Source: Parapristionchus giblindavisi
Taxonomy: Eukaryota > Nematoda > Chromadorea > Rhabditida > Diplogasteridae
Assembly (NCBI GenBank): GCA_943737045.1
Contig: CALSFV010000052.1
Coordinates: 186,001 to 250,000, forward strand
Direction of reading: 5' to 3'
DNA length: 64,000 nucleotides
How positions within the stretch are numbered: the first letter of the stretch is position 1; the number at the start of each line of letters is the position of its first letter. Positions 1,495 through 44,689 of the stretch are shown here, in pieces. A program made the position numbers and the translations under genes. The notes under the pieces were generated by a model. It worked only from the letters and a program-made list of their open reading frames with translations, did no database searches and was not told the DNA's origin.

Positions 1495-1942
1495 CCTCTG
1501 TGTGCCCTAGACGCATCGCAAATGATATTTAGACTTCATCTCAACAATTTGAAAATTTATGATTTTTTAACGTTTTTTATTAAAATTATTTTTTTTAATA
1601 GCCTGAGGGCACAAACAGGAAATTTCTGCTGTTCCGTGTAATAAGGGCCGGTGACACACCTAACACCCAAGTATGGACCCCCAGTTCCCATTGCTAGCGC
1701 ACGTGTCCGGGGGGTGGTCGAGTCTTAACGGCCATCTCTCTTAATATATTACCGAAACGTCAGATCACCGAGTGGATGGCACCATCGATTCTATTCTTGA
1801 TTTTTACGATTTTGGTTGAGCTTGTGTCTTGTATGCGTTCGGGAACAAATTTACTATATACTTATTAAATAAAAAAATTATTATATTATAATTTATAAAT
1901 TATAATTAAATAATTAACAAATACAACTAATGTCCATTGCAG
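1495..1942. other. Region before first visible kinase exon; no gene recognised
   Basis: AT-rich sequence between the foldback and the first recognisable kinase exon. I see no convincing exon for the missing kinase N-lobe here. It probably is intron of the TESK-like gene, with the foldback inserted in that intron or upstream. Confidence 0.4.
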
Positions 1943-6025: not shown

Positions 6026-7520
6026 CCATTATTGATTCTCCCCACTGTACTGTAAATAATGTAGTTAGAGTTTCTCCACGTGTGATGTATATCTATAGCG
6101 TATATTTTTTTTCGCTCTCTTGTTCCTGTTTGGCGGTATGTTTAATGTATTATTGTGTTGATAATTGCTGTGTGTGAGTCTAGAATATTCCATTGATTCA
6201 TTTCATCTTGTTGTCCTCTGCCCATTCCTTTTTTCCCGAATGCCTTGTCCCAACCTTGCTCTATCTCTCTCCATTTCTTTCGTTCCTTGTTGGCCTACTA
6301 TGACTGATTTTATGCATATATGTAATTTTATTATATTAACTAGAATTCAATGCTCATCCTCTTTCAATTATCTCTCCACCTATGACACTGAATTGACCCT
6401 ACACTCAATATTTCCTTGACTTTACTGTAATCGATCGAGTCTTTCCCCCGTATTTATCCCTTGTTCTGGCTACTTTTCCTCATTTCGATCATTCCTTCAT
6501 CTTTTATCATTGTTTCACTCACCCTATTCCTGTTTATGTCTCACTCCGTTTGCGTCTATTCTGCTAATCTCTGATCTAGAAGCTCCAAATTTTCTGGCTC
6601 CTCTTCTCGAAAAGTCCCGGGTGGAATGAATCCTGCTCATTTGTACTGTAGCGTGCACCTATCGATTAGTTGCTCCTCCTCATTATTGATTAATCATCTT
6701 ACCGTAACCCGCCACTATCATTACCCTTGTCTCATCAATCAATCGAATCTCATCTGTGTTTTTCCCTCTCCACTGTGAATCGGGCCCATATACCTACCGT
6801 ACCCTTACCCTACCGTACCTTTTACTGCACTCATCCATAACTACTGTAGATATATAGGTGTGTTTTTTTCTCGTTAATTCTGCCTTGTCAGATATGCTTA
6901 CATTATTCGATGAATCCCCATTATCCACTGTATATTGTGTGAGTGTGTGTGTGTGTGCGGATTACGGTAGTCGACGTTTCCCATACAATCAATCAATCGA
7001 TAACTGTTGCTTTAGTTCACCAGAGACTGCATATATATCACATGTACTATTCTTGTATCGAAGAATTATCTATTAATGTCTCATTTCTCCCCTTAATCTA
7101 ATCTCGTTTTATCTGATGCCCTCACTCACCACCTTTTTACCTTTCTGAATTACATGCCCCGCCCCCTTGACCACGCCCCTGTTTAACTCACTTAAAACGA
7201 CGGATAAATGCGAATTGGTAAATTATTTTCGATGCTCTGATAGATAAATGCGGTATCGCTGTAGCGAATTTGTGTTGATTGTTATACAATGCAATACAAT
7301 AATAATATTAATAATAATCCAACGTTAATAAAAATATTATTACAATAATAATATAATATAAATATATCTTTAAAGCGACAATACAAAATTCGACAAATGC
7401 TCTTATATATTCTCTGGATTCTATAAAAATTAACCATATTCTGCAGTAGGCCGTTCTATATTTCCGTGCTATTTTTCTGGATTGCTCTGATGAAAGATGT
7501 AGAAAGAAAAAAAGCTAAAA
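6026..7520. other. 3' flank of kinase gene (UTR and spacer)
   Basis: Non-coding, pyrimidine-rich, with many TACCGTA/TACTGTAG words. The whole stretch is repeated at 15634-17115 and, inverted, at 24810-26293, which is why it appears to hold the same reading frames three times. No gene seen. A site near 7515-7525 is the unoccupied counterpart of the FB3 insertion at 17119. Confidence 0.7.
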
Positions 7521-8512
7521 AGAGTACATAGTTTCAAGCATGTTAGTATTGTACTTGGTTAGGCCATAGATAAACGAAGAGTTGGATCATATTACTTTAT
7601 CGGTCAGACGAGTTTTTTTAGCTTCAAGCGTGCACAATATCGATTAAATCATTTGAACAATGTCTCTGTGTCTCCTACCAAGTCTCCTTGTAAAATGCAT
7701 ATAATATTGATTCCAAGATGGGAAGTGGTTCCCACTCTGTGTTGTTGATGGACATCGGTGTCCACGCCCGCGCGGTTAAATAGGCGGAGTCAGAATCACT
7801 ATATTAAGAGGGTTAATCTGAAGGAGGCGGAACCAAGAATCGGTATGTAAGAACGGGAGTGTTGGAGTATATCAAGAAGCATCATTTGTCGTCCTTTGTC
7901 TGTCTCTCAAGTCCAGCTGCTGTCTGTGTGTGGTAAATGCACGTTAGTTCAGCCTCTGGAATAGCTGGGCAACAATGAACCACATCTGGAAGAAGTTCCA
8001 GAAAAATGATTGAATATAAAGAGGGCGCGGCGGATGCCAGACGGGTTTGGTGGGATGCATTAGAGAAGACGTGCGTGCGCGATGGCATCCAATGATTCTC
8101 TCTGTCGCACTCTCCGCCGCGCAACCAAACCTGTCTGAGGTGCGCCGCTCTGACTAATGAATTATGGTCTGTTTATTGTGAAACACGCCAAAGCGCACAC
8201 CACAGTGTTGGTAAAGTCGCCTCGGCATCTCTGTTGCCACGCTATTCCCATCTCTTTCGCATTTTGAACTAACGTGAATGAAGCAATCTTGTACCCACTC
8301 CCCATACCCGAATTCTTAAACCGATTCGATGACAACGAGACAGGCCTCCATAAAACCATAATTATTATGTAACTGTTCTCTAGATGGTCGATTCGATGGA
8401 AATAAAGAAAGATAATAAATATTGTCTCATGTGATATTCAATAGAACCCTTTGCGATAATCAATAATAGATAATCAATATCATGAATAGTCAATGTTCTG
8501 TCACGCATAATA
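7521..8512. repeat. Block shared with 18621-19250 (and inverted 22678-23306)
   Basis: Direct paralogue of 18621-19250, interrupted by the element at 7940-8276, which the other copy lacks. No gene recognised; the short reading frames do not resemble proteins. Confidence 0.75.
7940..8276. mobile_element. 337-bp inverted-repeat element, TIR CACGTTAGTTCA, AATG duplication
   Basis: Compared with the paralogous site near 19022 (GGTAAATGAAAAATATTG), this copy has 337 extra bases starting CACGTTAGTTCA and ending TGAACTAACGTG, with AATG on both sides (7936-7939 and 8277-8280). The four-base target duplication and 12-bp terminal inverted repeats define a small non-autonomous DNA transposon. Its inside resembles, in opposite orientation, part of 34465-34680. 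Confidence 0.88.
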
Positions 8513-8514
8513 CT

Positions 8515-8648
8515 ACACACAGAGAAATAAGTGTTATCCTCGGAGCATAAGACCTAAAAAGTGTTGTCTTTAACACGAGCTCAAAAGTGTTAAATATAAC
8601 ACTTCTCAGGTCTTATGCTCCGTGGATAACACTTATTTCTGTGTGTGT
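8515..8648. mobile_element. 134-bp hairpin MITE, first copy
   Basis: Near-perfect palindrome centred on GAGCTC: ACACACAGAGAAATAAGTG at the left end is mirrored by CACTTATTTCTGTGTGTGT at the right. An almost identical copy is at 19255-19388. Single terminal-like pieces (ACAGAGAAATAAGTGTTAT) occur near 12285, 21019 and 29266. Confidence 0.85.
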
Positions 8649-8879
8649 GGCATACTGTATTCATATACTGTATTGTATTGTATTCTGCCGCTCTGTCTGC
8701 GGTTGGAATAATCTTTCCGTTCCACTCTCGCATATTTCATCAACAGACAAGGATCAACAGTCGAATCCCCTCCTAGAAGGCTTTCGAATGCCTGGAGGTG
8801 TACTTCCAACTGTCAAGCAGGAATAATGGACGATAGCGGAACGTTTTCGTGGATTTTCTACTCCAATCAACAAGTTCAA

Positions 8880-8976
8880 GCACAGGTAGCTTAATGGTAG
8901 AGCAATGCCCCGGATAGGCAGAGGTCGTGGGTTCGACTCCCTCCTTGTGCCAATCATTTGCCAACCTGTATCAAAT
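8880..8976 (+). mobile_element. tRNA-derived SINE-like insertion with 9-bp target duplication
   Basis: About 96 bp beginning with a tRNA-like fold: 7-bp acceptor pairing (GCACAGG with CTTGTGC), D-arm containing the A box TAGCTTAATGG, and T-arm with the B box GGGTTCGACTCC. The T stem has a T-T mismatch and the anticodon loop lacks the invariant U33, so a working tRNA is unlikely. AAGTTCAAG flanks it on both sides (8872-8880, 8977-8985), and the paralogous locus at 19638-19646 has a single AAGTTCAAG with nothing inserted. The tail is short (CAAAT). This is a very short SINE or a retroposed tRNA. Confidence 0.8.
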
Positions 8977-10934: not shown

Positions 10935-11204
10935 CATAAGAATAAGAACTTGCAAGCAAATTCCTTCTACCCCTAACTTACTGTTCTGCACTTACTGCTT
11001 TAGTTACTTTAGTTGCTGCACTTATTGTTAGTTAGTGCTGATAAGATAAACGTATTGTATACTATATTCATCACAACCATAAATTTGTATAATATTCAGG
11101 TGAATAAATATATTTATTCAGGTGAATAAATATAATACGAAATTATACACAGCATTGAAGTCCACATTACTCCTTGCAGCATAAATTTTTGGCACCTGAT
11201 TTGT

Positions 11205-11803
11205 TTAAGAAATGAAGTTGCTTTGTGTAAACAAGGACGACAAACCAATCATGCAGTTGAATCCGAAGCTTCTAAATAGCGATCCCATGAAAATCCTGCC
11301 CTCTTCAGTTGAGGGCCAGAAGAATGGAGCTCCTGAATACATTATAACATTAACGGAATAATTTTCACTGCATTACTCCGGGCATAATGGAATTTATACA
11401 CAGGATATTCAGGGTCGGTATTGCAGGAACCTTTGCAAATAGGTGATGAACCGAACCATTTGCATTTCTAAAAGAACTCAACTCTGATTAAACTTTCACA
11501 CTTTATTTTGTTCGTGAGAGTGTTCGTCGAGAGCGGGTAATATCAAGAGTTCGGTTCAAAATATTGCGAAACGATGAAATGACTACGTTTTCGTTAGACT
11601 GTCCCAGCTCTGACAGTGAGTAAGCTCTGATTTTTTTTTAGAACAAATAAAGAAGGAATTTTTTTATAGTAGTCAATACATACGGTAAAGTTGACTGGGC
11701 CAATGAGATCCCTTAAATATTCGTACTGCTTATCGGAAAAGGTATGGCGAGTGAGAGCTTGCAATATCAAGGACATAAAAACGAAGGCGAGAAGGAATCG
11801 CAT
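11205..11803 (-). pseudogene. Small secreted Cys-rich protein, copy B (frameshifted 3' end)
   Basis: Three exons on the minus strand: 11803-11684, 11467-11377, 11332-11205. Signal peptide begins MRFLLAFVFMSLILQALTRH. Exon 2 gives KCKWFGSSPICKGSC. In exon 3 a one-base deletion relative to the intact copies brings a stop after TQSNFIS, so the conserved C-terminal Cys-Cys end is lost. Same lesion as copies A and D, so it predates the duplication of the unit. A shortened product cannot be excluded. Confidence 0.75.
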
Positions 11804-13132
11804 CCTGAAGAAGATTAAGATATATTCACAAAAATATATAGTACGAGATTACAATACTAATCTTTATATCTACAAATGTGATATTAAATGCTCCACAATT
11901 GGCTCACGATTAACGAAGAGAAGAAGAAGCTGGGCAACCGATATCAACTTTGAGAGTTGAGAGAATGAAATGGAAAATGGTCGATTGAAAAAAAATGAAT
12001 TTGAAAAAAACCAAGTTACCAATTAGGGAAAAGGGAATGTAAATATAGTAACACGAGGGATCAATTAGGGGAAAGAACATTTTGATGCACGTCACCTCTT
12101 TTTTCAAAAATCGGTCCTTGTATTCTAATCGTGACGGTTGGGGACATGCCCTTTGATACCCTCACAATGCGAAGATCGACCTATGACATACGACTCATAT
12201 TCAAGATCATCCAATCGTCTTACAGCGATAATAGTAACTCTCCGCTCTGCCCACATGAGGACGCTTCTTCATGCACCCACATACAGAGAAATAAGTGTTA
12301 TTGTGCGTATAAAATGTACTTGCATAAGAAAATGACACAATGCTCTAAAGAACGGAAGTCGCTCAAAGGCTAGATCTCGCCCCGCTTCTCGATTGTCTCT
12401 CCGCTGCCTCTCACCTAACCCGGCTGACCTTCGCCGCACACTATTTTATATATAAAAGAGATCGGAATTTTTTGAACCATGCAAAACAAGAAATAGTCTC
12501 TTCTAGAAATAAAACAAGTGATTTTTATACGCTCAATATCCACGAAGCATCAGACCTCTCTGTGCACAGAAATGATCTACCGTCACAATTACAATGCGAG
12601 GACCGATTTAAAAAAAAGAGGTTACATGCATCAACATGTTCTTTCCCCTAATTGATCCCTCGTGCTACTACACATTGCCATTTCCCTAACTGGCAACTTG
12701 GTTTTTTTCAAATTCATTTTTTTTTTCAATCAACCATTTTCCATTTCATTCTCTCAACTCTCAAAGTTGATATCGGTTGCCCAGCTTCTTCATCTCTTCG
12801 TTAATCGTGAGTCAATAGTGGAGTATATAATATTACATTTGTAGATATAAAGATTAGTATTGCAATCTCGTACTATCTCTTCTTTGAATATATCTTAGAG
12901 AAAGTCAGGAATTATCTGTGTCATTGTTTCAAACCTAATACAAGATGTCCAACATTATTTTAGCTCTACTTCTCTCTTTAAGTCAAAATTCCTGTACATT
13001 CATTTTATTTACCCCATACCCTTTCTAAATTTTCGCTGTTCTACTATAAAAGAATATCACAATAACACTATTTTTATTGATTTTTTTTAAAAATTAAGCA
13101 ATTTCGTTCTTTGTTCAACTCCCTTCTTCAGG

Positions 13133-13590
13133 ATGCGATTCCTTCTCGCCTTCGTTTTTATGTCCTTGATATTACCCGCTCTCACTCGCCATACCTTTGC
13201 CGATAAGGAATACGAATATATAAGGGATCTCATTGGCCCTGTCAACTTTACCGTATGTATTGACTACTATGAAAATTTTCATTCAATAAGGTGAGAATAT
13301 TTAATCAGATTTGAGTTTTTTTTTCAGAAATGCAAATGGTTCGGTTCATCACCTATTTGCAAAGGTTCCTGCAATACCGACCCTGAATATCCTGTGTATA
13401 AATTCCATTATGACCGGAGTAATACAGTGAAAATTATTCCGTTAATGTTATAATGTATTCAGGAGAATCATTTTTCTGGCCCTCAACTGAAGAGGGCAGG
13501 ATTTTCATGGGATCGCTATTTAGAAGCTTCGGATTCAACTGCATGATTGGTTTGTCGTCCTTGTTTACACAAAGCAACTTCATTTCTTAA
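13133..13590 (+). pseudogene. Small secreted Cys-rich protein, copy A (frameshifted 3' end)
   Basis: Exons 13133-13252, 13328-13418, 13463-13590, head to head with copy B. The start codon follows a CTTCTTCAG acceptor by one base, suitable for trans-splicing. The protein is close to copy C (IRDLIGPVNFT at the end of exon 1) but carries the one-base deletion in exon 3 seen in B and D and stops before the terminal Cys-Cys segment. Confidence 0.75.
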
Positions 13591-14175
13591 ACAAATCAGG
13601 TGCCAAAAATTTATGCTGCAAGGAGTAATGTGGACTTCAATGCTGTGTATAATTTCGTATTATATTTATTCACCTGAATAAATGATTATACAAATTTATG
13701 GTTGTGATGAATATAGTATGTCAGATATTGACCGTATAAAATACACTTGTTTATTTGGTACAATACTAACCAGCCACAGCCACAATTTGTTTCTATGTTT
13801 ACAGAGAGAGAGAGCACAAGTGAGATAGTACGTAGATAAGAGAGAGCGAGAAAGGGAGGGAGGAAAAAGTGGGGAGTTGATCGATAGTTCTGTCTCTGTT
13901 TAGCAGCCAGTAGCAAGGCAATTACACAAGTACATTTTATACGGAATATAATTATGCGTCACAGTACATTGGCTATTAATGATATTGATTATCTATTATT
14001 GATTATCGCAAAGGATTCTATTGAGTATCACATGAGACAATATTTAGTTATATCATCATTATCTGTTAATTCAACCTTACTACCTCGTTGTGGTATTGTA
14101 TTTATGTGTCCCTAATGCATTTCTCTATGTATCTCATTATCATTCTTACTTGAAACGCACATAAAGATATTATTA

Positions 14176-15633
14176 GAGCCAGAATTTGGCGCTGGCCAGC
14201 CAATGTCCGCCCCCGGCGTCTCGCGGCCCTCATTCATCCACGGCACGCCACTGACGACAACTGGAGTGTCTCAGTCCGCTCGAGTGCAATGCTCACCACA
14301 TAATCCGTTCATGAGTCATGCACGATTCAGGTAATGTATTTTATTTGAATTAATTATTTAAATTAAATTAAAATGACAAATGCTAGAGAGATAGGCGGTG
14401 ATTCCCGGTTTCAGTATCACATGATTCCTGGAGAAATCCATATTTCGCGCTCGCTTAGATTCCCGAATGTACTATTCGCGCAGACGATATATGTGTGTGT
14501 GTGCGAACAATTTTTATTAAATATGTAGTTTAATATTGATTTATTTCAGATCAGCCCGTAAGATCGTGCCTCCGCGAGAGGAAGAGCGAGATCGACGACA
14601 GAGTGAGCGGAATAGAGAGGATGAAGATGAGGAAGAGAATGAGTGTGATGGAGGAAGGAGGAGGAGGCTATGGTAAGTGGGGATTACTGTAGTACTGTAG
14701 TACTGTACTGGTTACGGTAGAATTAAAAATAGCTTAATAGGCCGTTGTTTTTTACTTTCCAATATCAATTTCAATTGTTGATGTTTCTATCGATAACTAG
14801 CCTTGATTATTGATTGATTGGCCAATATTGATTGATTCTCTTACAGTCGTCTACTTCGTCGTTGTTCATCTCTGCCCTCTGAGATGGATTCGCCCTCACT
14901 GGATTGGCCAGATTCTTCTGATGAATACGACGATGACTATGATGACGTCAACGATGCCATCTGCGAGCACTCGATGACCAATGGAGCTGGTGCGATACCC
15001 ATGGCATTCAGGGACTATGATCAGGTAATGGGTGATTTTTGATCTTTTGATCTCTGTATCTCCAATGTTTGCAATTATCAATCAATCGATCTATAAATGA
15101 TTGATCTTTGATCTTTGTTCTTTGATCATAAATGTGTTCTATTTCAGAAGTTTCTTCGTCAATCGAAGCGTTTCTCTCGTCGTTACACGGTCATGGGATC
15201 GTCGGCTGCCACTGCCGCTTCTTCCATAACCGCCATCAGTCCTTGCGCAGTTGGAGTGTCGACGGTGACGTCAGTCTCGATGAGCGCCATTTCGACGTGT
15301 GCTATGACGACGATTCCGAATCCGCTCACTACACCGTGCACAACCGGTGTACTGTCGCCGGATACGGTATCGTGTTCGTCGGCGTCATCACCATCGTACA
15401 GTCCGGCGACGGGAGATCGTCTCAACAACAACAACACCGCTAAGACGCCTACGATGGCGCCAGAGGACACCACGGAGGCGCCAATGTCCACATCGCTCAA
15501 GTACTCGTCGTGGCCCAAACGACGAGAGTCGCGCATCGTGCGCCAAGAGGACGCGTCGTACGCGTCGGGTATCTGTCGAAGCCGCAACGCGACCGCGTCG
15601 CGAGCCGGACGTGGCGCGTGCGCGATACTGTAG
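14176..15633 (+). pseudogene. Kinase-less TESK 3' fragment, copy 2
   Basis: Duplicates the original gene from within exon 8 to beyond the stop: partial exon to 14330, then 14550-14672, 14847-15024, 15148-15633, with splice sites kept. The junction with foreign sequence is near 14176. The reading frame of the tail is intact (570-residue gene reduced to about 200 residues), with a few substitutions against the original, but there is no kinase domain and no obvious promoter. It may be transcribed as a non-coding or antisense partner. Confidence 0.85.
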
Positions 15634-17118
15634 CCATTATTGATTCTCCCCACAGTACTGTAAATAATGTAGTTAGAGTTTCTCCACGTGTGATGTATAT
15701 CTATAGCGTATATTTTTTTTCGCTCTCTTGTTCCTGTTTGGCGGTATGTTTAATGTATTATTGTGTTGATAATTGCTGTGTGTGAGTCTAGAATATTCCA
15801 TTGATTCATTTCATCTTGTTGTCCTCTGCCCATTCCTTTTTTCCCGAATGCCTTGTCCCAACCTTGCTCTATCTCTCTCCATTTCTTTCGTTCCTTGTTG
15901 GCCTACTATGACTGATTTTATGCATATATGTAATTTTATTATATTAACTAGAATTCAATGCTCATCCTCTTTCAATTATTTCTCCACCTATGACACTGAA
16001 TTGACCCTACACTCAATATTTCATTTACTTTATTGTAATCGATCGAGTCTTTCCCCGTCTTTATCCCTTGTTCTGGCTACTTTTCCTCCTCATTTCGATC
16101 ATTCCTTCATCTTTTATCACTATTTCACTCACCTATTCCTGTTTATGTCTCACTTCGTTTGCGTCTATTCTGCTAATCTTTGATCTAGAAGCTCCAAATT
16201 TTCCCGCTCCTCTTCTCGAAAAGTCCCGGGTGGAATGAATCCTGCTCATTCGTACTGTAGCGTGCACCTATCGATTAGTTGCACCTCATCTTTATTGATT
16301 AATCATCTTACCGTAACCCGCCACTATCATTACCCTTGTCTCATCAATCAATCGAATCTCATCTGTGTTTTCCCTCTCCACTGTGAATCGGGCCCATATA
16401 CCTACCGTACCCTTACCCTACCGTACCCTTTTACTGCACTCACCCATAATTACTGTAGGTATATAGGTGCGTTTTTTCTCGTTAATTCTGCCTTGTCAAA
16501 TATGCTTACATTATCCGATGAATACCCATTATCCACTGTATATTGTGTGAGTGTGTGTGTGTGTGGATTACGGTAGTCGACGTTTCCCATACAATCAACC
16601 TATCGATGACTGTTGCTTTAGTTCACCAGAGACTGCATATATCACATGTACTATTCTTGTATCGAAGAATTATCTATTAATGTCTCATTTCTCCCCTTAA
16701 TCTAATCTCGTTTTATCTGATGCCCTCACTCACCACCTTTTTACCTTTCTGAATTACATGCCCCGCCCCCTTGACCACGCCCCTTTTTAACTCACTTAAA
16801 ACGACGGATAAATGCGAATCGGTAAATTATTTTCGATGCTCTGATAGATAAATGCGGTATCGCTGTAGCGAATTTGTGTTGATTGTTATACAATACAATA
16901 CAATAATAATATTAATAATAATCCAACGTTAATAAAAATATTATTACAATAATAATATGGTCGTATTCTCTTTCAAGCGACAATACGATATTTGACAAAT
17001 GATCTGATATATTCTCTGGATTCTGTATACAAATTATCCATATTCTGCAGTAGACCGTTCTATATTTCCGTGATATTTTCTGGATTGCTCTGATGAAAGA
17101 TGAAGAAAGAAAAATGCT
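15634..17118. other. Duplicate of kinase 3' flank
   Basis: Matches 6026-7520 with small indels. No gene seen. Confidence 0.8.
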
Positions 17119-18620
17119 TTAAGACACCGGCTCAGTGAGATTCCAGGTAGTGCCGGACATCGACCTCACCGATTTGGCTCAAAATTTTTTTGTGGATACC
17201 CCCACGGCCCCCTATCACAAAATGGGTATTCATTTGGGCTGTATCCTTGAAACACAGATGTGGCGGGTTCTCGAAATTTGAAAACTCGATTTTCGCCCAA
17301 AAAAAGTGGAGCGACCTAGGTCCAATATTAGTGTGGAATAATTACATATATGCCTATGCAACAAAAACTCGCTATTGGACGGTCCGGATATCCGATCGCA
17401 AACTGATTTTTTTTACCTCCTCAAAACATTCTAAATTTAATTAAAATTTTAAAACAAAAAAACGGCAGACCAATTTTAGCCTCATGTTATAGAGCAAAAA
17501 ATTCCGCATCGAATAAGGCAAAAAATCAAAAATCGATCGACCCGTGTTTTGAGATAAATGAACCTGAAGATGACCCGAAAATATTTTTGTTTTCAAACCC
17601 CCTCATGTTTATACTCATATTGAAGAGCTCTTCGAGTTCAACAACTTTCATGTTTAACGTTTTGTCTGAAACTCATGTACAAGAGAAATACATCTTTATT
17701 TATTCTTTTATTTATTCTCACAGTTTTTCAGTCAAATTTAGAGTAAATCGAAAGTAAAATATTTTTTGTGCGCAAAGTGATTAAATCTATATTGTAGAAC
17801 TCAAAAATGCATACTTAATTAGTTGTTTCACGAAAAAAAATTGTTAACCCCTATGCTGAAAAACATGGCCTCTAAAGTGGTCATGAAAAAAAGTTGTCGA
17901 AACCTTACCATGTTTATGCTCATTTTAAAGAACTCGTAGAGCACATCATTTTTTATGTTGCTCGTATTCTATGAAAGTCGTTTGTTCTCAAGATACAAGC
18001 GATAAAAAATATTTGGATCCAATAAATCTTAATTCATGTATTTCTCTTGTACATGAGTTTCAGACAAAATGTTCAACATGAAAGTTGTTCCACTCGACGA
18101 GCTATTCAATATGAGTACAAACATAAGGGGGTTTGAAAACAAAAATATTTTCGGGTCATCTTCAGGTTCATTTATCTCAAAACACGGGTCGATCGATTTT
18201 TGATTTTTTTGCCTTATTCGATGAGGAATTTTTTGCTCTATAACATGAGGCTAAAATTGGGCTGCCTTTTTTTGTTTTAAAATTTTAATTAAATTTAGAA
18301 TGTTTTGAGGAGGTAAAAAAATCAGTTTGCGATCGGATATCCGGGCCGTCCAATAGCGAGTTTTTGTTGCATAGGCATATATGTAATTATTCCACACTAA
18401 TATTGGACCTAGGTCGCTCCACTTTTTTTTTGGGCGAAAATCGAGTTTTAAAATTTCGAGAACCCGCTACATCTGTGTTTCAAGGATACAGCCCAAATGA
18501 ATACCCATTTTGTGATAGGGGGCCGTGGGGGTATCCACAAAAAAATTTTGAGCCAAATTGGTGAGGTCGATGTCCGGGGTCAATGGCTCAACCCTCGAAT
18601 CTTACTGAGCCGGTGTCTTA
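17119..18620. mobile_element. Foldback element FB3, left-arm copy
   Basis: Terminal inverted repeats TTAAGACACCGGCTCAGTGA and TACTGAGCCGGTGTCTTAA; arms pair through most of 1.5 kb. Arm-internal motif GATCGCAAACTGATTTTTTT near 17394 and mirrored near 18320. The first TESK locus has no element at the equivalent site near 7518, so the insertion followed the direct duplication. Longer reading frames inside are arm artefacts. Termini resemble FB4 and FB8. Confidence 0.88.
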
Positions 18621-19254
18621 AAAAGTACATAGTTTCAAGCATGTTAGAATTGAACTTGGCTATGCCATACGTAAAAGAAGAGTTGGATCATATTACTTTG
18701 TCGGTCAGACGCGTTTTTTTTTAGTTTCAAGCTTGCACAATATCGATTATATCATTTGAACAATGTCTCTGTGTCTCCTAAAATGCAAATAATATTGAAT
18801 CCAAGATGGGAAGTCCACTCTGTGTTGTTGATGGACATCGGTGTCCAAGCACGCGCGGCTAAATAGGCGGAGTCAGAATCACTATATTAAGAGGGTTAAT
18901 CTGAAGGAGGCGGAGCCCCGAATCGGTATGTAAGAACGGGAGTGTTGGAGTACATCAAGAAGCATCATGTGTCCTCCTTTGTCTGTCTCTCAAGTCCAGC
19001 TGCTGTCTGTGTGTGGTAAATGAAAAATATTGTACCCACTCCCCATACCCGAATTCTTAAACCGATTCGCTGACAACGCGACAGACCCCAAAAAACCCAT
19101 AATAATTATGTTACTGTTCTCTCTCATTGCTTGTGATGGAAATAAAGAAAGATAATAAATGTTGTCTCATGTGATATTCAATAGAACCATTTGCGATAAT
19201 CAATAATAGATAATCAATATCATGAATAGCCAATGTTCTGTGACGCATAATACT

Positions 19255-19388
19255 ACACACAGAGAAATAAGTGTTATCCTCGGAGCATAAGACCTAAAAA
19301 GTGTTGTCTTTAACACGAGCTCAAAAGTGTTAAATATAACACTTCTCAGGTCTTATGCTCCGTGGATAACACTTATTTCTGTGTGTGT
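19255..19388. mobile_element. 134-bp hairpin MITE, second copy
   Basis: Essentially identical to 8515-8648. It lies just inside the palindrome boundary and has no counterpart in the right arm. Confidence 0.85.
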
Positions 19389-19690
19389 GGCATACTGTAT
19401 TCATATACTGTATTGTATTGTATTCTGCCGCTCTGTCTGCGGTTGGAATAATCTTTCCGTTCCACTCTCGCATTTTTCATCAACAGACAAGGATCAACAG
19501 TCGAATCCCCTCCTAGAAGGCTTTCGAATGCCTGGAGGTGTACTGGAGGTGTACTTGGAGGTGTACTGGAGGTGTACGTCAAGCAGGAATAATGGACGAT
19601 AGCGGAACGTTTTCGTGGATTTTCTACTCCAATCAACAAGTTCAAGTTCGATCGTTTTCTTGAATGGAGAAAATATCTCTCAGAGACATA
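19389..19690. repeat. Empty-site paralogue of 8649-9031
   Basis: Direct paralogue of the first locus, but lacking both the SINE and FB2. A local 14-bp tandem expansion (GGAGGTGTACT and variants, about four copies near 19544-19577) is absent from the first locus. Confidence 0.8.
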
Positions 19691-19939
19691 AGAATAAGAA
19701 CTTGCAAGCAAATTCCTTCTACCCCTAACTTACTGTTCTGCACTTACTGCTTTAGTTACTTTAGTTGCTGCACTTATTGTTAGTTAGTGCTGATAAGATA
19801 AACGTATTGTATACTATATTCATCACAACCATAAATATGTATAATCATTTATTCAGGTGAATAAATATAATACGAAATTATACACAGCATTGAAGTCCAC
19901 ATTACTCCTTGCAGCATAAATTTTTGGCACCTGATTTGT

Positions 19940-20538
19940 TTAAGAAATGAAGTTGCTTTGTGTAAACAAGGACGACAAACCAATCATGCAGTTGAATCCG
20001 AAGCTTCTAAATAGCGATCCCATGAAAATCCTGCCCTCTTCAGTTGAGGGCCAGAAGAATGGAGCTCCTGAATACATTATAACATTAACGGAATAATTTT
20101 CACTGCATTACTCCGGGCATAATGGAATTTATACACAGGATATTCAGGGTCGGTATTGCAGGAACCTTTGCAAATAGGTGATGAACCGAACCATTTGCAT
20201 TTCTAAAAGAACTCAACTCTGATTAAACTTTCACACTTTATTTTGTTCGTGAGAGTGTTCGTCGAGAGCGGGTAATATCAAGAGTTCGGTTCAAAATATT
20301 GCGAAACGATGAAATGACTACGTTTTCGTTAGACTGTCCCAGCTCTGACAGTGAGTAAGCTCTGATTTTTTTTTAGAACAAATAAAGAAGGAATATTTTT
20401 ATAGTAGTCAATACATACGGTAAAGTTGACTGGGCCAATGAGATCCCTTAAATATTCGTACTGCTTATCGGAAAAGGTATGGCGAGTGAGAGCTTGCAAT
20501 ATCAAGGACATAAAAACGAAGGCGAGAAGGAATCGCAT
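19940..20538 (-). pseudogene. Small secreted Cys-rich protein, copy D (frameshifted 3' end)
   Basis: Exons 20538-20419, 20202-20112, 20067-19940, all offset by exactly 8735 from copy B and nearly identical to it, including the deletion that ends exon 3 at TQSNFIS. Left half of inverted unit 2 (centre near 21,201). Confidence 0.75.
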
Positions 20539-21864
20539 CCTGAAGAAGATTAAGATATATTCAAAGAAGAGATAGTACGAGATTGCAATACTAATCTTTA
20601 TATCTACAAATGTAATATTATATACTCCACTATTGACTCACGATTAACGAAGAGAAGAAGAAGCTGGGCAACCGATATCAACTTTGAGAGTTGAGAGAAT
20701 GAAATGGAAAATGGTCGATTGAAAAAAAATGAATTTGAAAAAAACCAAGTTACCAATTAGGGAAAAGGGAATGTAAATATAGTAACACGAGGGATCAATT
20801 AGGGGAAAGAACATGTTGATGCACGTCACCTCTTTTTTCAAAAATCGGTCCTTGTATTCTAATCGTGACGGTTGGGGACATGCCCTTTGATACCCTCACA
20901 ATGCGAAGATCGACCTATGACATACGACTCATATTCAAGATCATCCAATCGTCTTACAGCGATAATAGTAACTCTCCGCTCTGCCCACATGAGGACGCTT
21001 CTTCATGCACCCACATACAGAGAAATAAGTGTTATTGTGCGTATAAAATGTACTTGCATAAGAAAATGACACAATGCTCTAAAGAACGGAAGTCGCTCAA
21101 AGGCTAGATCTCGCCCCGCTTCTCGATTGTCTCTCCGCTGCCTCTCACCTAACCCGGCTGACCTTCGCCGCACACTATTTTATATATAAAAGAGATCGGA
21201 ATTTTTTGAACCATGCAAAACAAGAAATAGTCTCTTCTAGAAATAAAACAAGTGATTTTTATACGCTCAATATCCACGAAGCATCAGACCTCTCTGTGCA
21301 CAGAAATGATCTACCGTCACAATTACAATGCGAGGACCGATTTAAAAAAAGAGGTTACATGCATCAACATGTTCTTTCCCCTAATTGATCCCTCGTGCTA
21401 CTACACATTGCCATTTCCCTAACTGGCAACTTGGTTTTTTTCAAATTCATTTTTTTTTTCAATCAACCATTTTCCATTTCATTCTCTCAACTCTCAAAGT
21501 TGATATCGGTTGCCCAGCTTCTTCTTCTCTTCGTTAATCGTGAGTCAATAGTGGAGTATATAATATTACATTTGTAGATATAAAGATTAGTATTGCAATC
21601 TCGTACTATCTCTTCTTTGAATATATCTTAGAGAAAGTCAGGAATTATCTGTGTCATTGTTTCAAACCTAATACAAGATGTCCAACATTATTTTAGCTCT
21701 ACTTCTCTCTTTAAGTCAAAATTCCAGTACATTCATTTTATTTACCCCATACCCTTTCTAAATTTTCGCTGTTCTACTATAAAAGAATATCACAATAACA
21801 CTATTTTAATTGATTTTTTTTAAAATTAAGCAATTTCGTTCTTTGTTCAACTCCCTTCTTCAGG

Positions 21865-22356
21865 ATGCGATTCCTTCTCGTCTTCGTTTTAATGTCCTTG
21901 ATATTCCCCGCTCTCACGCGCCATACCTTTGCCGATAAGGAATACGAATATATAAGGGATCTCATTGGCCCTGTCAACTTTACCGTATGTATTGACTACT
22001 ATGAAAATTTTCATTCAATAAAGTGAGAATATTTAATCAGATTTGAGTTTTTTTCAGAAATGCAAATGGTTCGGTTCATCACCTATTTGCAAAGGTTCCT
22101 GCAATACCGACCCTGAATATCCTGTGTATAAATTCCATTATGACCGGAGTAATACAGTGAAAAATATTCCGGTAATGTTATAATGTATTCAGGAGAATCA
22201 TTTTTCTGGCCCTCAACTGAAGAGGGCAGGATTTTCATGGGAACGCTATTTAGAAGCTTCGGAGTTAACTGCATGTTCGGTTTGTCGTCCTTGCTTACAC
22301 AAAGTCAAATTCATTACTTCAAATCAGGTGCCAAAAATTTATGCTGCAAGAAGTGA
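21865..22356 (+). CDS. Small secreted Cys-rich protein, copy C (intact)
   Basis: Exons 21865-21984, 22058-22148, 22193-22356; the second intron is only 44 bp. Total 375 nt, 124 residues. The start codon sits one base after a CTTCTTCAG acceptor. A signal peptide (MRFLLVFVLMSLIFPALTRH) is followed by a mature domain with six cysteines: KCKWFGSSPICKGSC, a lone NC, and a terminal NLCCKK. The C-x-W-x-G-x-x-P-x-C-x-G-x-C pattern followed by a late Cys pair recalls a widespread nematode secreted family, but I cannot name its function. Right half of inverted unit 2. Copy C and copy E are the only ones of six with an open frame to the Cys-Cys end. Confidence 0.72.
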
Positions 22357-23306
22357 TGGGAACTTCGATGATGTGTCTAATTTCGTATTATATTTATTCA
22401 CCTGAATAAATGATTATACACATTTATGGTTGTGATGAATACAGTATGTCAGATATTGACCGTATAAAATACGCTTGTTTATTTGGTACAATACTAACCA
22501 GCCACAGCCACAATTTGTATCTATGTTTACAGAGAGAGAGAGCACAAGTGAGATAGTACGTAGATAAGAGAGAGCGAGAAAGGGAGGGAGGAAAAAGTGG
22601 GGAGTTGATCGATAGTTCTGTCTCTGTTTAGCAGCCAGTAGCAAGGCAATTACACAAGTACATTTTATACGGAATATAATTATGCGTCACAGTACATTGG
22701 CTATTAATGATATTGATTATCTATTATTGATTATCGCAAAGGATACTATTGAGTATCACATGAGACAATATTTATTATCTTTCTTTATTTCCATCACAAG
22801 CAATGAGAGAGAACAGTAACATAATTATTATGGGTTTTTTGGGGTCTGTCGCGTTGTCAGCGAATCGGTTTAAGAATTCGGGTATGGGGAGTGGGTACAA
22901 TATTTTTCATTTACCACACACAGACAGCAGCTGGACTTGAGAGACAGACAAAGGAGGACACATGATGCTTCTTGATGTACTCCAACACTCCCGTTCTTAC
23001 ATACCGATTCGGGGCTCCGCCTCCTTCAGATTAACCCTCTTAATATAGTGATTCTGACTCCGCCTATTTAGCCGCGCGTGCTTGGACACCGATGTCCATC
23101 AACAACACAGAGTGGACTTCTCATCTTGGATTCAATATTATTTGCATTTTAGGAGACACAGAGACATTGTTCAAATGATATAATCGATATTGTGCAAGCT
23201 TGAAACTAAAAAAAACGCGTCTGACCGACAAAGTAATATGATCCAACTCTTCTTTTACGTATGGCATAGCCAAGTTCAATTCTAACATGCTTGAAACTAT
23301 GTACTT

Positions 23307-24808
23307 TTTAAGACACCGGCTCAGTAAGATTCGAGGTTGAGCCATTGACCCCGGACATCGACCTCACCAATTTGGCTCAAAATTTTTTTGTGGATACCCC
23401 CACGGCCCCCTATCACAAAATGGGTTTTCATTTGGGCTGTATCCTTGAAACACAGATGTAGCGGGTTCTCGAAATTTGAAAACTCGATTTTCGCCCAAAA
23501 AAAAAGTGGAGCGACCTAGGTCCAATATTAGTGTGGAATAATTACATATATGCCTATGCAACAAAAACTCGCTATTGGACGGCCCGGATATCCGATCGCA
23601 AACTGATTTTTTTACCTCCTCAAAACATTCTAAATTTAATTAAAATTTTAAAACAAAAAAAGGCTGCCCAATTTTAGCCTCATGTTATAGAGCAAAAAAT
23701 TCCTCATCGAATAAGGCAAAAAAATCAAAAATCGATCGACCCGTGTTTTGAGATAAATGAACCTGAAGATGACCCGAAAATATTTTTGTTTTCAAACCCC
23801 CTTATGTTTGTACTCATATTGAATAGCTCGTCGAGTGGAACAACTTTCATGTTGAACATTTTGTCTGAAACTCATGTACAAGAGAAATACATGAATTAAG
23901 ATTTATTGGATCCAAATATTTTTTATCGCTTGTATCTTGAGAACAAACGACTTTCATAGAATACGAGCAACATAAAAAATGATGTGCTCTACGAGTTCTT
24001 TAAAATGAGCATAAACATGGTAAGGTTTCGACAACTTTTTTTCATGACCACTTTAGAGGCCATGTTTTTCAGCATAGGGGTTAACAATTTTTTTTCGTGA
24101 AACAACTAATTAAGTATGCATTTTTGAGTTCTACAATATAGATTTAATCACTTTGCGCACAAAAAATATTTTACTTTCGATTTACTCTAAATTTGACTGA
24201 AAAACTGTGAGAATAAATAAAAGAATAAATAAAGATGTATTTCTCTTGTACATGAGTTTCAGACAAAACGTTAAACATGAAAGTTGTTGAACTCGAAGAG
24301 CTCTTCAATATGAGTATAAACATGAGGGGGTTTGAAAACAAAAATATTTTCGGGTCATCTTCAGGTTCATTTATCTCAAAACACGGGTCGATCGATTTTT
24401 GATTTTTTGCCTTATTCGATGCGGAATTTTTTGCTCTATAACATGAGGCTAAAATTGGTCTGCCGTTTTTTTGTTTTAAAATTTTAATTAAATTTAGAAT
24501 GTTTTGAGGAGGTAAAAAAATCAGTTTGCGATCGGATATCCGGACCGTCCAATAGCGAGTTTTTGTTGCATAGGCATATATGTAATTATTCCACACTAAT
24601 ATTGGACCTAGGTCGCTCCACTTTTTTTGGGCGAAAATCGAGTTTTCAAATTTCGAGAACCCGCCACATCTGTGTTTCAAGGATACAGCCCAAATGAATA
24701 CCCATTTTGTGATAGGGGGCCGTGGGGGTATCCACAAAAAAATTTTGAGCCAAATCGGTGAGGTCGATGTCCGGCACTACCTGGAATCTCACTGAGCCGG
24801 TGTCTTAA
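23307..24808. mobile_element. Foldback element FB3, right-arm copy
   Basis: Mirror copy of 17119-18620, carried along by the inverted duplication and not an independent insertion, because the surrounding arms match on both sides. The 188-codon minus-strand frame inside (24171-24737) arises from a small indel and is not protein-like. Confidence 0.85.
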
Positions 24809-26293
24809 AGCATTTTTCTTTCTTCATCTTTCATCAGAGCAATCCAGAAAATATCACGGAAATATAGAACGGTCTACTGCAGAATATGGATAATTTGTAT
24901 ACAGAATCCAGAGAATATATCAGATCATTTGTCAAATATCGTATTGTCGCTTGAAAGAGAATACGACCATATTATTATTGTAATAATATTTTTATTAACG
25001 TTGGATTATTATTAATATTATTATTGTATTGTATTGTATAACAATCAACACAAATTCGCTACAGCGATACCGCATTTATCTATCAGAGCATCGAAAATAA
25101 TTTACCGATTCGCATTTATCCGTCGTTTTAAGTGAGTTAAAAAGGGGCGTGGTCAAGGGGGCGGGGCATGTAATTCAGAAAGGTAAAAAGGTGGTGAGTG
25201 AGGGCATCAGATAAAACGAGATTAGATTAAGGGGAGAAATGAGACATTAATAGATAATTCTTCGATACAAGAATAGTACATGTGATATATGCAGTCTCTG
25301 GTGAACTAAAGCAACAGTCATCGATAGGTTGATTGTATGGGAAACGTCGACTACCGTAATCCACACACACACACACTCACACAATATACAGTGGATAATG
25401 GGTATTCATCGGATAATGTAAGCATATTTGACAAGGCAGAATTAACGAGAAAAAACGCACCTATATACCTACAGTAATTATGGGTGAGTGCAGTAAAAGG
25501 GTACGGTAGGGTAAGGGTACGGTAGGTATATGGGCCCGATTCACAGTGGAGAGGGAAAACACAGATGAGATTCGATTGATTGATGAGACAAGGGTAATGA
25601 TAGTGGCGGGTTACGGTAAGATGATTAATCAATAAAGATGAGGTGCAACTAATCGATAGGTGCACGCTACAGTACGAATGAGCAGGATTCATTCCACCCG
25701 GGACTTTTCGAGAAGAGGAGCGGGAAAATTTGGAGCTTCTAGATCAAAGATTAGCAGAATAGACGCAAACGAAGTGAGACATAAACAGGAATAGGTGAGT
25801 GAAATAGTGATAAAAGATGAAGGAATGATCGAAATGAGGAGGAAAAGTAGCCAGAACAAGGGATAAAGACGGGGAAAGACTCGATCGATTACAATAAAGT
25901 AAATGAAATATTGAGTGTAGGGTCAATTCAGTGTCATAGGTGGAGAAATAATTGAAAGAGGATGAGCATTGAATTCTAGTTAATATAATAAAATTACATA
26001 TATGCATAAAATCAGTCATAGTAGGCCAACAAGGAACGAAAGAAATGGAGAGAGATAGAGCAAGGTTGGGACAAGGCATTCGGGAAAAAAGGAATGGGCA
26101 GAGGACAACAAGATGAAATGAATCAATGGAATATTCTAGACTCACACACAGCAATTATCAACACAATAATACATTAAACATACCGCCAAACAGGAACAAG
26201 AGAGCGAAAAAAAATATACGCTATAGATATACATCACACGTGGAGAAACTCTAACTACATTATTTACAGTACTGTGGGGAGAATCAATAATGG

Positions 26294-27751
26294 CTACAGT
26301 ATCGCGCACGCGCCACGTCCGGCTCGCGACGCGGTCGCGTTGCGGCTTCGACAGATACCCGACGCGTACGACGCGTCCTCTTGGCGCACGATGCGCGACT
26401 CTCGTCGTTTGGGCCACGACGAGTACTTGAGCGATGTGGACATTGGCGCCTCCGTGGTGTCCTCTGGCGCCATCGTAGGCGTCTTAGCGGTGTTGTTGTT
26501 GTTGAGACGATCTCCCGTCGCCGGACTGTACGATGGTGATGACGCCGACGAACACGATACCGTATCCGGCGACAGTACACCGGTTGTGCACGGTGTAGTG
26601 AGCGGATTCGGAATCGTCGTCATAGCACACGTCGAAATGGCGCTCATCGAGACTGACGTCACCGTCGACACTCCAACTGCGCAAGGACTGATGGCGGTTA
26701 TGGAAGAAGCGGCAGTGGCAGCCGACGATCCCATGACCGTGTAACGACGAGAGAAACGCTTCGATTGACGAAGAAACTTCTGAAATAGAACACATTTATG
26801 ATCAAAGAACAAAGATCAAAGATCAATCATTTATAGATCGATTGATTGATAATTGCAAACATTGGAGATACAGAGATCAAAAGATCAAAAATCACCCATT
26901 ACCTGATCATAGTCCCTGAATGCCATGGGTATCGCACCAGCTCCATTGGTCATCGAGTGCTCGCAGATGGCATCGTTGACGTCATCATAGTCATCGTCGT
27001 ATTCATCAGAAGAATCTGGCCAATCCAGTGAGGGCGAATCCATCTCAGAGGGCAGAGATGAACAACGACGAAGTAGACGACTGTAAGAGAATCAATCAAT
27101 ATTGGCCAATCAATCAATAATCAAGGCTAGTTATCGATAGAAACATCAACAATTGAAATTGATATTGGAAAGTAAAAAACAACGGCCTATTAAGCTATTT
27201 TTAATTCTACCGTAACCAGTACAGTACTACAGTACTACAGTAATCCCCACTTACCATAGCCTCCTCCTCCTTCCTCCATCACACTCATTCTCTTCCTCAT
27301 CTTCATCCTCTCTATTCCGCTCACTCTGTCGTCGATCTCGCTCTTCCTCTCGCGGAGGCACGATCTTACGGGCTGATCTGAAATAAATCAATATTAAACT
27401 ACATATTTAATAAAAATTGTTCGCACACACACACATATATCGTCTGCGCGAATAGTACATTCGGGAATCTAAGCGAGCGCGAAATATGGATTTCTCCAGG
27501 AATCATGTGATACTGAAACCGGGAATCACCGCCTATCTCTCTAGCATTTGTCATTTTAATTTAATTTAAATAATTAATTCAAATAAAATACATTACCTGA
27601 ATCGTGCATGACTCATGAACGGATTATGTGGTGAGCATTGCACTCGAGCGGACTGAGACACTCCAGTTGTCGTCAGTGGCGTGCCGTGGATGAATGAGGG
27701 CCGCGAGACGCCGGGGGCGGACATTGGCTGGCCAGCGCCAAATTCTGGCTC
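26294..27751 (-). pseudogene. Kinase-less TESK 3' fragment, copy 3 (inverted)
   Basis: Mirror image of copy 2: exons 27597 to about 27751 (partial), 27255-27377, 26903-27080, 26294-26779. Shares copy 2's substitutions against the original, so the inverted duplication came after copy 2 diverged. Reading through the palindrome would give sense and antisense of this tail. Confidence 0.85.
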
Positions 27752-28245
27752 TAATAATATCTTTATGTGCGTTTCAAGTAAGAATGATAATGAGATACAT
27801 AGAGAAATGCATTAGGGACACATAAATACAATACCACAACGAGGTAGTAAGGTTGAATTAACAGATAATGATGATATAACTAAATATTGTCTCATGTGAT
27901 ACTCAATAGAATCCTTTGCGATAATCAATAATAGATAATCAATATCATTAATAGCCAATGTACTGTGACGCATAATTATATTCCGTATAAAATGTACTTG
28001 TGTAATTGCCTTGCTACTGGCTGCTAAACAGAGACAGAACTATCGATCAACTCCCCACTTTTTCCTCCCTCCCTTTCTCGCTCTCTCTTATCTACGTACT
28101 ATCTCACTTGTGCTCTCTCTCTCTGTAAACATAGAAACAAATTGTGGCTGTGGCTGGTTAGTATTGTACCAAATAAACAAGTGTATTTTATACGGTCAAT
28201 ATCTGACATACTATATTCATCACAACCATAAATTTGTATAATCAT

Positions 28246-28787
28246 TTATTCAGGTGAATAAATATAATACGAAATTAGACACATCATTGAAGTTCCCATC
28301 ACTTCTTGCAGCATAAATTTTTGGCACCTGATTTGAAGTAATGAATTTGACTGTGTAAGCAAGGACGACAAACCGAACATGCAGTTAACTCCGAAGCTTC
28401 TAAATAGCGTTCCCATGAAAATCCTGCCCTCTTCAGTTGAGGGCCAGAAAAATGATTCTCCTGAATACATTATAACATTACCGGAATATTTTTCACTGTA
28501 TTACTCCGGTCATAATGGAATTTATACACAGGATATTCAGGGTCGGTATTGCAGGAACCTTTGCAAATAGGTGATGAACCGAACCATTTGCATTTCTGAA
28601 AACACTCAAATCTGATTAAATTTTCTCACTTTATTGAATGAAAATTTTTATAGTAGTCAATACATACGGTAAAGTTGACAGGGCCAATGAGATCCCTTAT
28701 ATATTCGTATTCCTTATCGGCAAAGGTATGGCGAGTGAGAGCGGGTAATATCAAGGACATAAAAACGAAGGCGAGAAGGAATCGCAT
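28246..28787 (-). pseudogene. Small secreted Cys-rich protein, copy F (altered 3' end)
   Basis: Exons 28787-28668, 28595-28505, 28460-28246. Exons 1 and 2 are intact. In exon 3 a two-base deletion after LLT shifts the frame relative to copy C, so the terminal Cys-Cys segment is replaced by unrelated residues running to 28246. The lesion differs from that in A, B and D. Confidence 0.7.
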
Positions 28788-30116
28788 CCTGAAGAAGATT
28801 AAGATATATTCACAAAAAATATATAGTACGAGATTACAATACTAATCTTTATATCTACAAATGTGATATTAAATGCTCCACAATTGGCTCACGATTAACG
28901 AAGAGAAGAAGAAGCTGGGCAACCGATATCAACTGCGAGAGTTGAGAGAATGAAATGGAAAATGGTTGATTGAAAAAAAATGAATTTGAAAATCCAAGCT
29001 ACCAATTAGGGAAAAGGCAATGTAAATGTAGTAACGCGAGGGATCAGTTAGGGGAAAGAACATGTTGATGCATGTAACCTCTTTTTTTAAAATCTTTCCT
29101 TGTATTCTAATCGTGACAGTTGGGGTCATGCCCTTTGGTACCCTCACAATGAGAAGATCGACCTATGACATACGACACATATTCAAGACCATCCAATCGT
29201 CTTACAGCGATAATAGTAACTCTAAGCTCTGCCCTCATGAGGACGCTTCTTCGTGCACCCACATACAGAGAAATAAGTGTTATTGTGCGTATAAAATGTA
29301 CTTGCATAAGAAAATGACACTGCTCTAAAGAACGGAAGTCGCTCAAAGGCTAGATCTCGCCCCGCTTCTCGATTGTCTCTCCGCTGCCTCTCACCTAACC
29401 CGGCTGACCATCGCCGCGCGCTATTTGATATAAAAGAGATCGGCACATGTTTCTGAAACATGCAAAACAAGAAATAGTCTCGCCTACAAATAAAACAAGT
29501 GATTTTTATACTCTCAATGTCCACATAAGACAATCACAGAAATGAGCCCTTATCTATAATCTACCGTCACGATTACAATGCGAGGACCGATTTAAAAAAA
29601 GAGGTTACATGCATCAACATGTTCTTTCCCCTAATTGATCCCTCTTGCTACTACACATTGCCATTTCTCTAATTGGCAACTTGGGTTTGTCAATTTCATT
29701 TTTTTTCAATCAACCATTTTTCATTTCATTCTCTCAACTCTCAAAGTTGATATCGGTTGCCCAGCTTCTTCTTCTCTTCGTTAATCGTGAGTCAATAGTG
29801 GAGTATATAATATTACATTTGTAGATATAAAGATTAGTATTGTAATCTCGTACTATATCTTTTTTTGGCTAATACATCTTAAGTCATTAATTAGTTGTGT
29901 CATTTTTTCAAGCCCAATACAAGATGTCCTACATCATTTTAGCTCGACTACTCCCTTTAAGACAAAATTCCTGTACATTCATTTTCAATTACTCCACACC
30001 CTTTCTAAATCTTCGCTGATCCACTATAAAAGAATATCACAATAACATTATTTTTATTGATTTAAAAAAAAGCAATTTTGTTCTTTGTTCACCTTGTAGG
30101 CCAAATCTTCATCAAG

Positions 30117-30892
30117 ATGCGATTCCTTCTCGCCTTCGTTTTTATGTCCTTGATATTCCCCGCTCTCACTCGCCGTAAATTAGACGATATGTACACCGAA
30201 TATTTAAGGGATCTCATTGGCCCTGCCAACTTTAGCGTATGTATTGAATAATACTAATAATACTACTCCTACTACTACTACTACTAATAATAATAATAAT
30301 AATAATAATAATATCTTTATGTGCGTTTCAGGTAAGAATGATAATGAGATACATAGAGAAATACATTACGGACATACTATAAAAATTTTCCTTCTTTATT
30401 TGTTGTTGACAAACCAGAGCTGTGACGAATCTCTCGCTTAGTCACTGTCAGGGCTGGGACAGTCTAACCAACACATAGTCACTTCATCGTTTCGCTATAT
30501 TTTGAACCCAACTCTTGATATTCCCAGCTCTTGACGAACACTCTCACGAACAAAATAAAGTGAGAAAGTTTAATCAGAGTTGAGTACTTTTAGAAATGCA
30601 AATGGTTCGGTACATCACCTATTTGCCAAGGTTCCTGCAATACCGACCCTGAATATCCTGTGTATAAATTCCATGATTCAGGTTGTAATACAGTCAAAAA
30701 TATTCCATTAATGTTATATTGTATTCAGCCGATAAAGAATTGTGGCCCTCAACTGAAGAGGGCAGGCATTTCATTGCTGCTCTATATCATCGCTTCGGAT
30801 TGAACTGCGTAGCCGGTTTGTCGTCCTTGCTTACACAAAGTCAACTTCATTTCTCAAAATCAGGTGCCAAAAATTTATGCTGCAAGAAGTGA
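30117..30892 (+). CDS. Small secreted Cys-rich protein, copy E (intact, most diverged)
   Basis: Exons 30117-30236, 30594-30681, 30729-30892; 372 nt, 123 residues. Signal peptide MRFLLAFVFMSLIFPALTR, then KCKWFGTSPICQGSC, LNCVAG and SGAKNLCCKK at the end; all six cysteines kept. Its second intron is 47 bp with a GTTGTA donor. The first intron is enlarged to 357 bp by a CTA/ATA microsatellite and a piece resembling 14110-14160. Amino-acid changes around the signal cleavage region (RRKLDDMYTEY in place of RHTFADKEYEY) suggest an independently evolving functional copy. Confidence 0.7.
30245..30312. repeat. CTA/ATA microsatellite in copy E intron
   Basis: Runs of CTA then ATA triplets, about 22 units in all, inside intron 1 of copy E. 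Confidence 0.9.
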
Positions 30893-31019
30893 TGGGAACT
30901 TCGATGATGTGTCTAATTTCGTATTATATTTATTCACCTGAATAAATGATTATACACATTTATGGTTGTGATGAATGCAGTATGTCAGATAATCATGTGT
31001 CACAGAAGAGTGGCTATTT

Positions 31020-43739: not shown

Positions 43740-43962
43740 AGGTTTTGTACACACAGTTTGGTCTTCTTGCTCGTTGTATCAGATTATTCGGAGATCGATG
43801 GTTTTGGAATTTTTTTTTTTGATCATTCAAGAACCGCGAAATTGTAACCCTCAGATTAAAACTTTTATTTTATAACCGTCTATTTGAATACCGATGAATG
43901 AGCAAAATTGATTTGTGCCCTTTTGTTATGTAATCTACGCGAAGGAAACGAGCATCCGTAAA

Positions 43963-44652: not shown

Positions 44653-44689
44653 TGGAACTATTACTATGCGGAAGGCAACGGTTCCCACC

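Follow-up and report, generated by a model that had tools for sequence, protein, structure and literature searches.

What produced a near-perfect palindrome of 14.6 kb, with gene fragments in both arms, in the genome of the nematode Parapristionchus giblindavisi, and is the structure real? The initial annotation of a 64,000-nucleotide stretch of contig CALSFV010000052.1 (assembly GCA_943737045.1, positions 186,001 to 250,000; the whole stretch is referred to here as the window, and positions are counted from its first base) described two near-perfect reverse-complement arms with an almost constant coordinate sum. We compared the arms with each other, with the remainder of the window and with the other contigs of the genome, and the coordinates of the features are collected in Table 1.

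Table 1. Features of the palindrome and of the surrounding duplications in the window
Feature	Position	Strand	Basis or remark
Parent kinase gene (TESK type), source of the copied tail; model of 11 exons without the N-terminal part	1942..6025	+	Pfam and homology
K, tail exons and 3' flank, copy 1, in the parent gene	4572..7511	+	96.4% BLAST identity to 14195-17114
T, downstream DNA of unit 1; IRb counterpart at 8412-8511	7515..8880	+	matches 18617-19022 and 19016-19646
R unit 1, palindromic head-to-head gene pair	10935..14051	.	inverted arms; 97.8% identical to R' (19687-22778)
R left gene, 81 codons, two exons	11345..11803	-	
R right gene, 81 codons, two exons	13133..13450	+	
Palindrome left arm, core	13650..19151	+	alignment with 28275-22778
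IRa, 100-bp homology at the R end	13951..14051	+	93% to the reverse complement of 19152-19251
K', kinase-tail copy 2, begins inside a parent exon, without kinase domain	14177 (about)..17114	+	self-comparison
Fold-back element, 1.5 kb, bounded by TTAA; each inverted end about 0.58 kb long	17118..18622	.	in both arms, absent from unit 1
T', copy of T, includes IRb (19152-19251)	18617..19646	+	self-comparison
R' unit, palindrome centre	19687..22778	.	genes 20080-20538 (-) and 21865-22180 (+)
Inner join, IRa-type sequence turning into reverse-complement T' at its right edge	22679..22778	+	
Palindrome right arm, inverted copy of 13650-19151	22778..28275	-	BLASTN and base-by-base alignment
R'' unit, older copy, contains the outer join near 28275	28244..30991	.	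genes 28473-28787 (-) and 30117-30716 (+); stretches 86-91% identical to R

Identity of the arms

BLASTN of the window against itself matched 13123-19251 with 28797-22679 on the minus strand over 6129 columns (99.3% identity, 33 mismatches, 6 gap openings), and both the coordinates and the sum given in the initial annotation proved right within a few bases. The annotation had also proposed that the arms be aligned and their substitutions counted. Base-by-base alignment of the core arms gave 4 substitutions, at left-arm positions 18263, 18450, 18502 and 18809, and 3 one-base indels, at 17407, 18592 and 18714; a second scoring yielded 4 substitutions and 4 gap events over 5497 columns, the fourth gap being taken as an end effect. 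Beyond the core, the edges hold 22 substitutions in 13123-13649, within one of the R genes described below, and 7 in 19152-19251. Chance cannot give this palindrome or the inverted repeats in its spacer.

All seven core differences fall within 17407-18809, five of them inside the fold-back element, and left-arm positions 13650-17406 do not differ from the right arm at all. A substitution-free run of 4,610 columns, such as the one between the arms, was reached in 13 of 5000 shuffles; the differences are therefore unevenly spread over the arms, and conversion may have reached one part of the arm more recently than the rest. The ampliconic palindromes of Y chromosomes have arms that are more than 99% identical around a spacer and undergo arm-to-arm conversion. 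The palindrome described here resembles them in having long arms around a spacer with an identity above 99%, the level of conversion-maintained palindromes, and differs from them in that its arms measure kilobases rather than tens to hundreds of kilobases and its arm genes are fragments. That near identity implies either recent origin or arm-to-arm conversion had been proposed before and is supported; either would account for the arms, and it is between the first two copies of the kinase tail, not between the arms, that conversion is indicated.

The few differences also bear on whether there are two arms. In comparison with five other copies of the fold-back element, private states occur at 17407 and 18450 in one arm (arm A) and at 18263 and 18502 in the other (arm B), while position 18592 is variable among the element copies. 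That both arms have private changes favours two distinct arms; the same pattern could, however, arise from alleles of a single locus or from residual errors. We considered whether the differences came from polishing with reads of other element copies and rejected this, since such polishing should make the arms more similar to those copies, yet one arm A substitution and two arm B substitutions point away from the five.

It is improbable, in our judgement, that the palindrome is an artefact of assembly or haplotype merging, in which one block, or two alleles in opposite orientation, would have been placed twice in the contig. The P. giblindavisi assembly was described as built from CCS reads with a mean length of 13 kb at about 60-fold coverage, with FALCON-Unzip followed by HaploMerger2, the latter because heterozygosity remained (PMC9526060). 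This is the likely source of the contig, and an artefact would fit both these programs and arms that are only 4 substitutions apart. The mean read is shorter than the 14.6-kb structure, but 13 kb of CCS read suffices to cross a 5.5-kb arm into the spacer or the flank. Each arm has its private changes, which alleles could have too, and the joins lie in diverged homologies of 100 bp and of a few hundred base pairs, not in long perfect repeats.

The kinase gene and its tail copies

The gene fragments in the arms had been recognised as the tail of a kinase gene with its splice sites kept, and this holds: the gene belongs to the TESK family, and the left-arm exons have intact signals and an open frame, as does the right arm, because the arms show no difference in that stretch. 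A third, direct copy of the tail, which the initial annotation had not included, is part of the parent gene itself. In a six-frame Pfam read the parent scored 29.3 bits for PF07714 (cut-off 23.1) and 30.6 bits for PF00069 (cut-off 31.7); its best solved relative is LIM kinase 1 (E 2.8e-40), and its best protein matches, at 52-57% identity, come from Pristionchus, of which Parapristionchus is reported to be the sister genus (PMC12181933). The exon edges of the parent were set by hand, and some are off by at least one base.

K and K' differ by 65 substitutions in 2,908 columns (2.2%). The frame of K' is open over 307 codons including the stop, with the splice sites kept, and carries 3 synonymous and 4 nonsynonymous changes relative to the parent. 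A run of 678 bp without substitutions (4916-5598) spans introns and exons, and none of 5000 shuffles gave a run as long; gene conversion between K and K' is indicated at the level of sequence. The K/K' patch crosses introns and exons, as does conversion between paralogues in Caenorhabditis (PMC3966223). When the same test was applied to the copies of T, such a run was absent from one part (2569 of 5000 shuffles) and present in the other (0 of 5000).

The two kinase tails inside the palindrome converge, with stop codons at 15633 and 26294, and a read-through hairpin RNA is therefore possible. The palindrome might persist because its arms, transcribed convergently or by read-through, give rise to double-stranded RNA that would silence the parent kinase or the R genes, but this seems to us very improbable. 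The opposite orientation of the tails and the substitution-free 678 bp shared by K' and the parent gene would suit such silencing. Against it, the stop codons are separated by about 10.7 kb containing two other genes, and duplication alone accounts for the structure. The kinase-tail copies are probably passengers.

Another copy of the kinase gene was observed on contig C493, from about position 20144. It is intronless and 5'-truncated, with all ten of the modelled introns absent and an open frame of 562 codons; identity to the parent is complete over the first four exon pieces (300 columns), 88-98% in later pieces and 90% in the 3' part. This copy is a processed retrocopy, perhaps patched by conversion. 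A DNA search that scored 40 of 4712 candidates had failed to list it, and absence from that search therefore carries little weight.

Palindromic gene pairs at the centre and the joins

Within the spacer, the initial annotation had noted a further inverted repeat, which we found at 19811-20242/22017-22447 (91.9%), 20387-20548/21855-22016 (91.4%) and 20551-20872/21313-21630 (93.2%). What had been called a spacer is itself an old palindrome, a pair of genes from a family with many copies. Such pairs are multiplied as whole units, of which the window contains three, named R, R' and R''; every unit consists of a minus-strand and a plus-strand paralogue that point apart, head to head. The inverted arms of the first unit lie at 11112-11507/13285-13683 (96.2%), 11661-11813/13123-13275 (94.1%) and 11816-12138/12579-12897 (89.5%); the last of these, like the last repeat of the spacer, is the intergenic DNA of the pair. 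The right part of R' and the left part of R'' (21855-22778 and 27876-28797) are alike over 0.92 kb, with 14 substitutions.

The six R genes of the window look intact. Each encodes a protein of 81 residues in two exons with GT donors and AG acceptors, and TAA follows directly in five of the six, TAT in the sixth. The start of the protein looks like a putative signal peptide, and the motif C-x-W-x-G-x2-P-x-C-x-G-x-C is common to eleven members of the family, some of which were joined by guess. No homologue outside this genome was found by a single-sequence search or by a search with the 11-row alignment (331 candidates, none at E 0.001), and Pfam returned only unrelated families at E 0.016 or worse. 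The ratio dN/dS among the six genes was uninformative, as there are few changes. At the centre of the first R palindrome, between the divergent genes, a 240-bp repeat (12299-12538) occurs on many contigs at 91-94% identity; it is a dispersed repeat at the shared promoter region.

The palindrome belongs to a kind that is known from nematodes. Inverted-repeat divergent gene pairs of Caenorhabditis have been described as head-to-head paralogues with an intergenic inverted repeat that multiply as a unit, and at the F44E5.4 locus arms of 2207 bp around a 126-bp spacer are 99.7% identical, a likeness ascribed to gene conversion (Zhao et al. 2007, PMC1803023). The R units share this layout. Unlike the Caenorhabditis pairs as presented there, the R pair sits in the middle and at both ends of a larger palindrome, and fragments of an unrelated kinase gene occupy the 5.5-kb arms. 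Among the matches listed in literature searches on Pristionchus palindromes and inverted repeats and on nematode palindromes, inverted duplicates and gene pairs, we found no description of this locus, and for the nematode topics nothing closer than PMC1803023, PMC4352052 and PMC3966223.

Self-comparison of the window revealed a tandem unit of K, T and R that recurs as K', T' and R'. In addition, the segment that starts at the end of R and extends across K' into T' is present a second time in inverted orientation, with the older R'' after it. The palindrome forms the third block of this small cluster of duplications. The three R units flank two intervals, both of which hold the same block of kinase tail, element and T', in opposite orientations, and the tract that they share continues without interruption from 13650 to 19151. 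Only unit 1 contains a tRNA-Ser (8880-8951) and an insertion at 9060-10896 with inverted ends of 0.82 kb (9060-9881/10077-10896, 97.9%). The fold-back element has at least 34 near-full copies on other contigs (among the 40 of 4712 candidates that were scored), with TTAA at the right edge in all five copies examined and at the left edge in all four in which that end was found. Since the element is present in both arms and missing from unit 1, the order of events was tandem duplication, element insertion and inverted copying.

Both joins of the palindrome lie in inverted homologies of the R family, which had not been recognised before. At the inner join, 22628-22778 follows the end of R, including all of IRa, with one substitution. 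The change to the reverse complement of T' occurs within an ATTTA common to both, where the 100-bp inverted homology between IRa and IRb has its right edge. At the outer join, the right arm tracks the left arm to about 28275 and continues as R'' sequence, inside the arm common to the R units. Between the arms 13650-14051 is identical, though R and R' differ there at 6 sites, as one continuous copied tract predicts.

We consider the palindrome to be a real and recent inverted segmental duplication, formed by homology-directed copying between palindromic gene pairs, with a probability of roughly 0.6; the mechanism is one that we infer from the sequence. A break or a stalled fork between R' and R'' would have been repaired with the interval between R and R' as donor. 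As the R units are palindromic, the flanks of the two intervals match also in inverted orientation, so that the donor would have been copied in reverse, giving the observed joins. With 4 substitutions in about 5.5 kb, the arms would either have had little time since then to become different or be kept alike by conversion. Joins at inverted homologies at both ends, the fold-back element at the same place in both arms and missing from unit 1, the conversion between K and K', the private changes of the arms and a second R-family palindrome on another contig all count for copying. Against it stands the short homology of the inner join, 100 bp long and 93% identical. In the part of the literature consulted, conversion between C. 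elegans paralogues is tabulated genome-wide at 12-2,958 bp (PMC3966223); a single 5.5-kb tract would exceed this range, and template-switch copying may therefore be the better name.

The 0.92-kb likeness of R' and R'' also counts against copying, as it suits a different history, in which a direct third block between R' and R'' was flipped through the inverted R ends (21855-22778/27876-28797) and the arms were later homogenised by conversion. We regard this as unlikely. The right block is indeed flanked by these inverted repeats and conversion has been active between K and K', but this history takes three steps, duplication, inversion and conversion, where copying takes one. An inversion alone, whether between IRa and IRb or confined to the R arms, was rejected, as on our reading of the joins it does not yield both flanks.

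Human DUP-TRP/INV-DUP rearrangements, attributed to break-induced replication with template switching, likewise contain an inverted copy with a join inside inverted repeats (PMC4352052). As far as they are described there, they follow the order direct, inverted, direct, whereas the order in the window is direct, direct, inverted, with both joins in repeats instead of one and with copies of different ages, at 2.2% and 0.07% substitutions. A single event of this type was rejected because the copies differ in age (65/2908 and 4/5497 columns).

A second palindrome and further repeats

A related R family occupies 19 exon-2 places, counted as places and not as gene pairs, in 150 kb of contig C2. On this contig, 1613765-1618453 and 1621303-1625996 are reverse complements (99.79% over 4,694 columns, 5 mismatches, 2 gaps) around a spacer of 2.85 kb, with an R-family gene in each arm and a 4-base indel between the copies. 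The outer ends of this palindrome lie in sequence common to other R-family places; at its inner ends no R-family homology was found, so it need not have formed as the palindrome in the window did. Two palindromes with R-family genes, without a genome-wide baseline, make no rule.

The locus is of interest because both joins of a long palindrome are still readable and both fall in inverted homologies of a palindromic gene pair, which offers a concrete and testable path by which small inverted gene pairs, as known in Caenorhabditis, could give rise to large near-perfect palindromes. It also lends itself naturally to measurements of gene conversion and of the stability of palindromes, in a cultured worm. 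In a wider and rather doubtful reading, palindromic divergent pairs would act as orientation-blind copying modules: the DNA of one interval would be copied into the next in either direction, repeatedly seeding large palindromes, here and on C2, and leaving mirrored fragments of neighbouring genes, some of which might feed small-RNA silencing of the parent gene.

Other repeats were observed in the window. A whole 2.2-kb stretch (31474-33698) matches its own reverse complement at 91.7%, and at 43960-47847 arrays of a 58-bp satellite lie in opposite orientations on either side of inverted arrays of a 118-bp repeat. An open frame of 742 codons on the minus strand (52813-55041) encodes repeats rich in proline, tyrosine and glycine. 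A 22-base pattern, which we take to be the nematode spliced leader SL1, occurs 351 times in the genome (251,446,729 bases, 703 contigs), against no occurrence of the same pattern read backwards, which marks the genome as a nematode's; it also forms an array with a period of about 1.17 kb on the minus strand of contig C145 (26449-82876).
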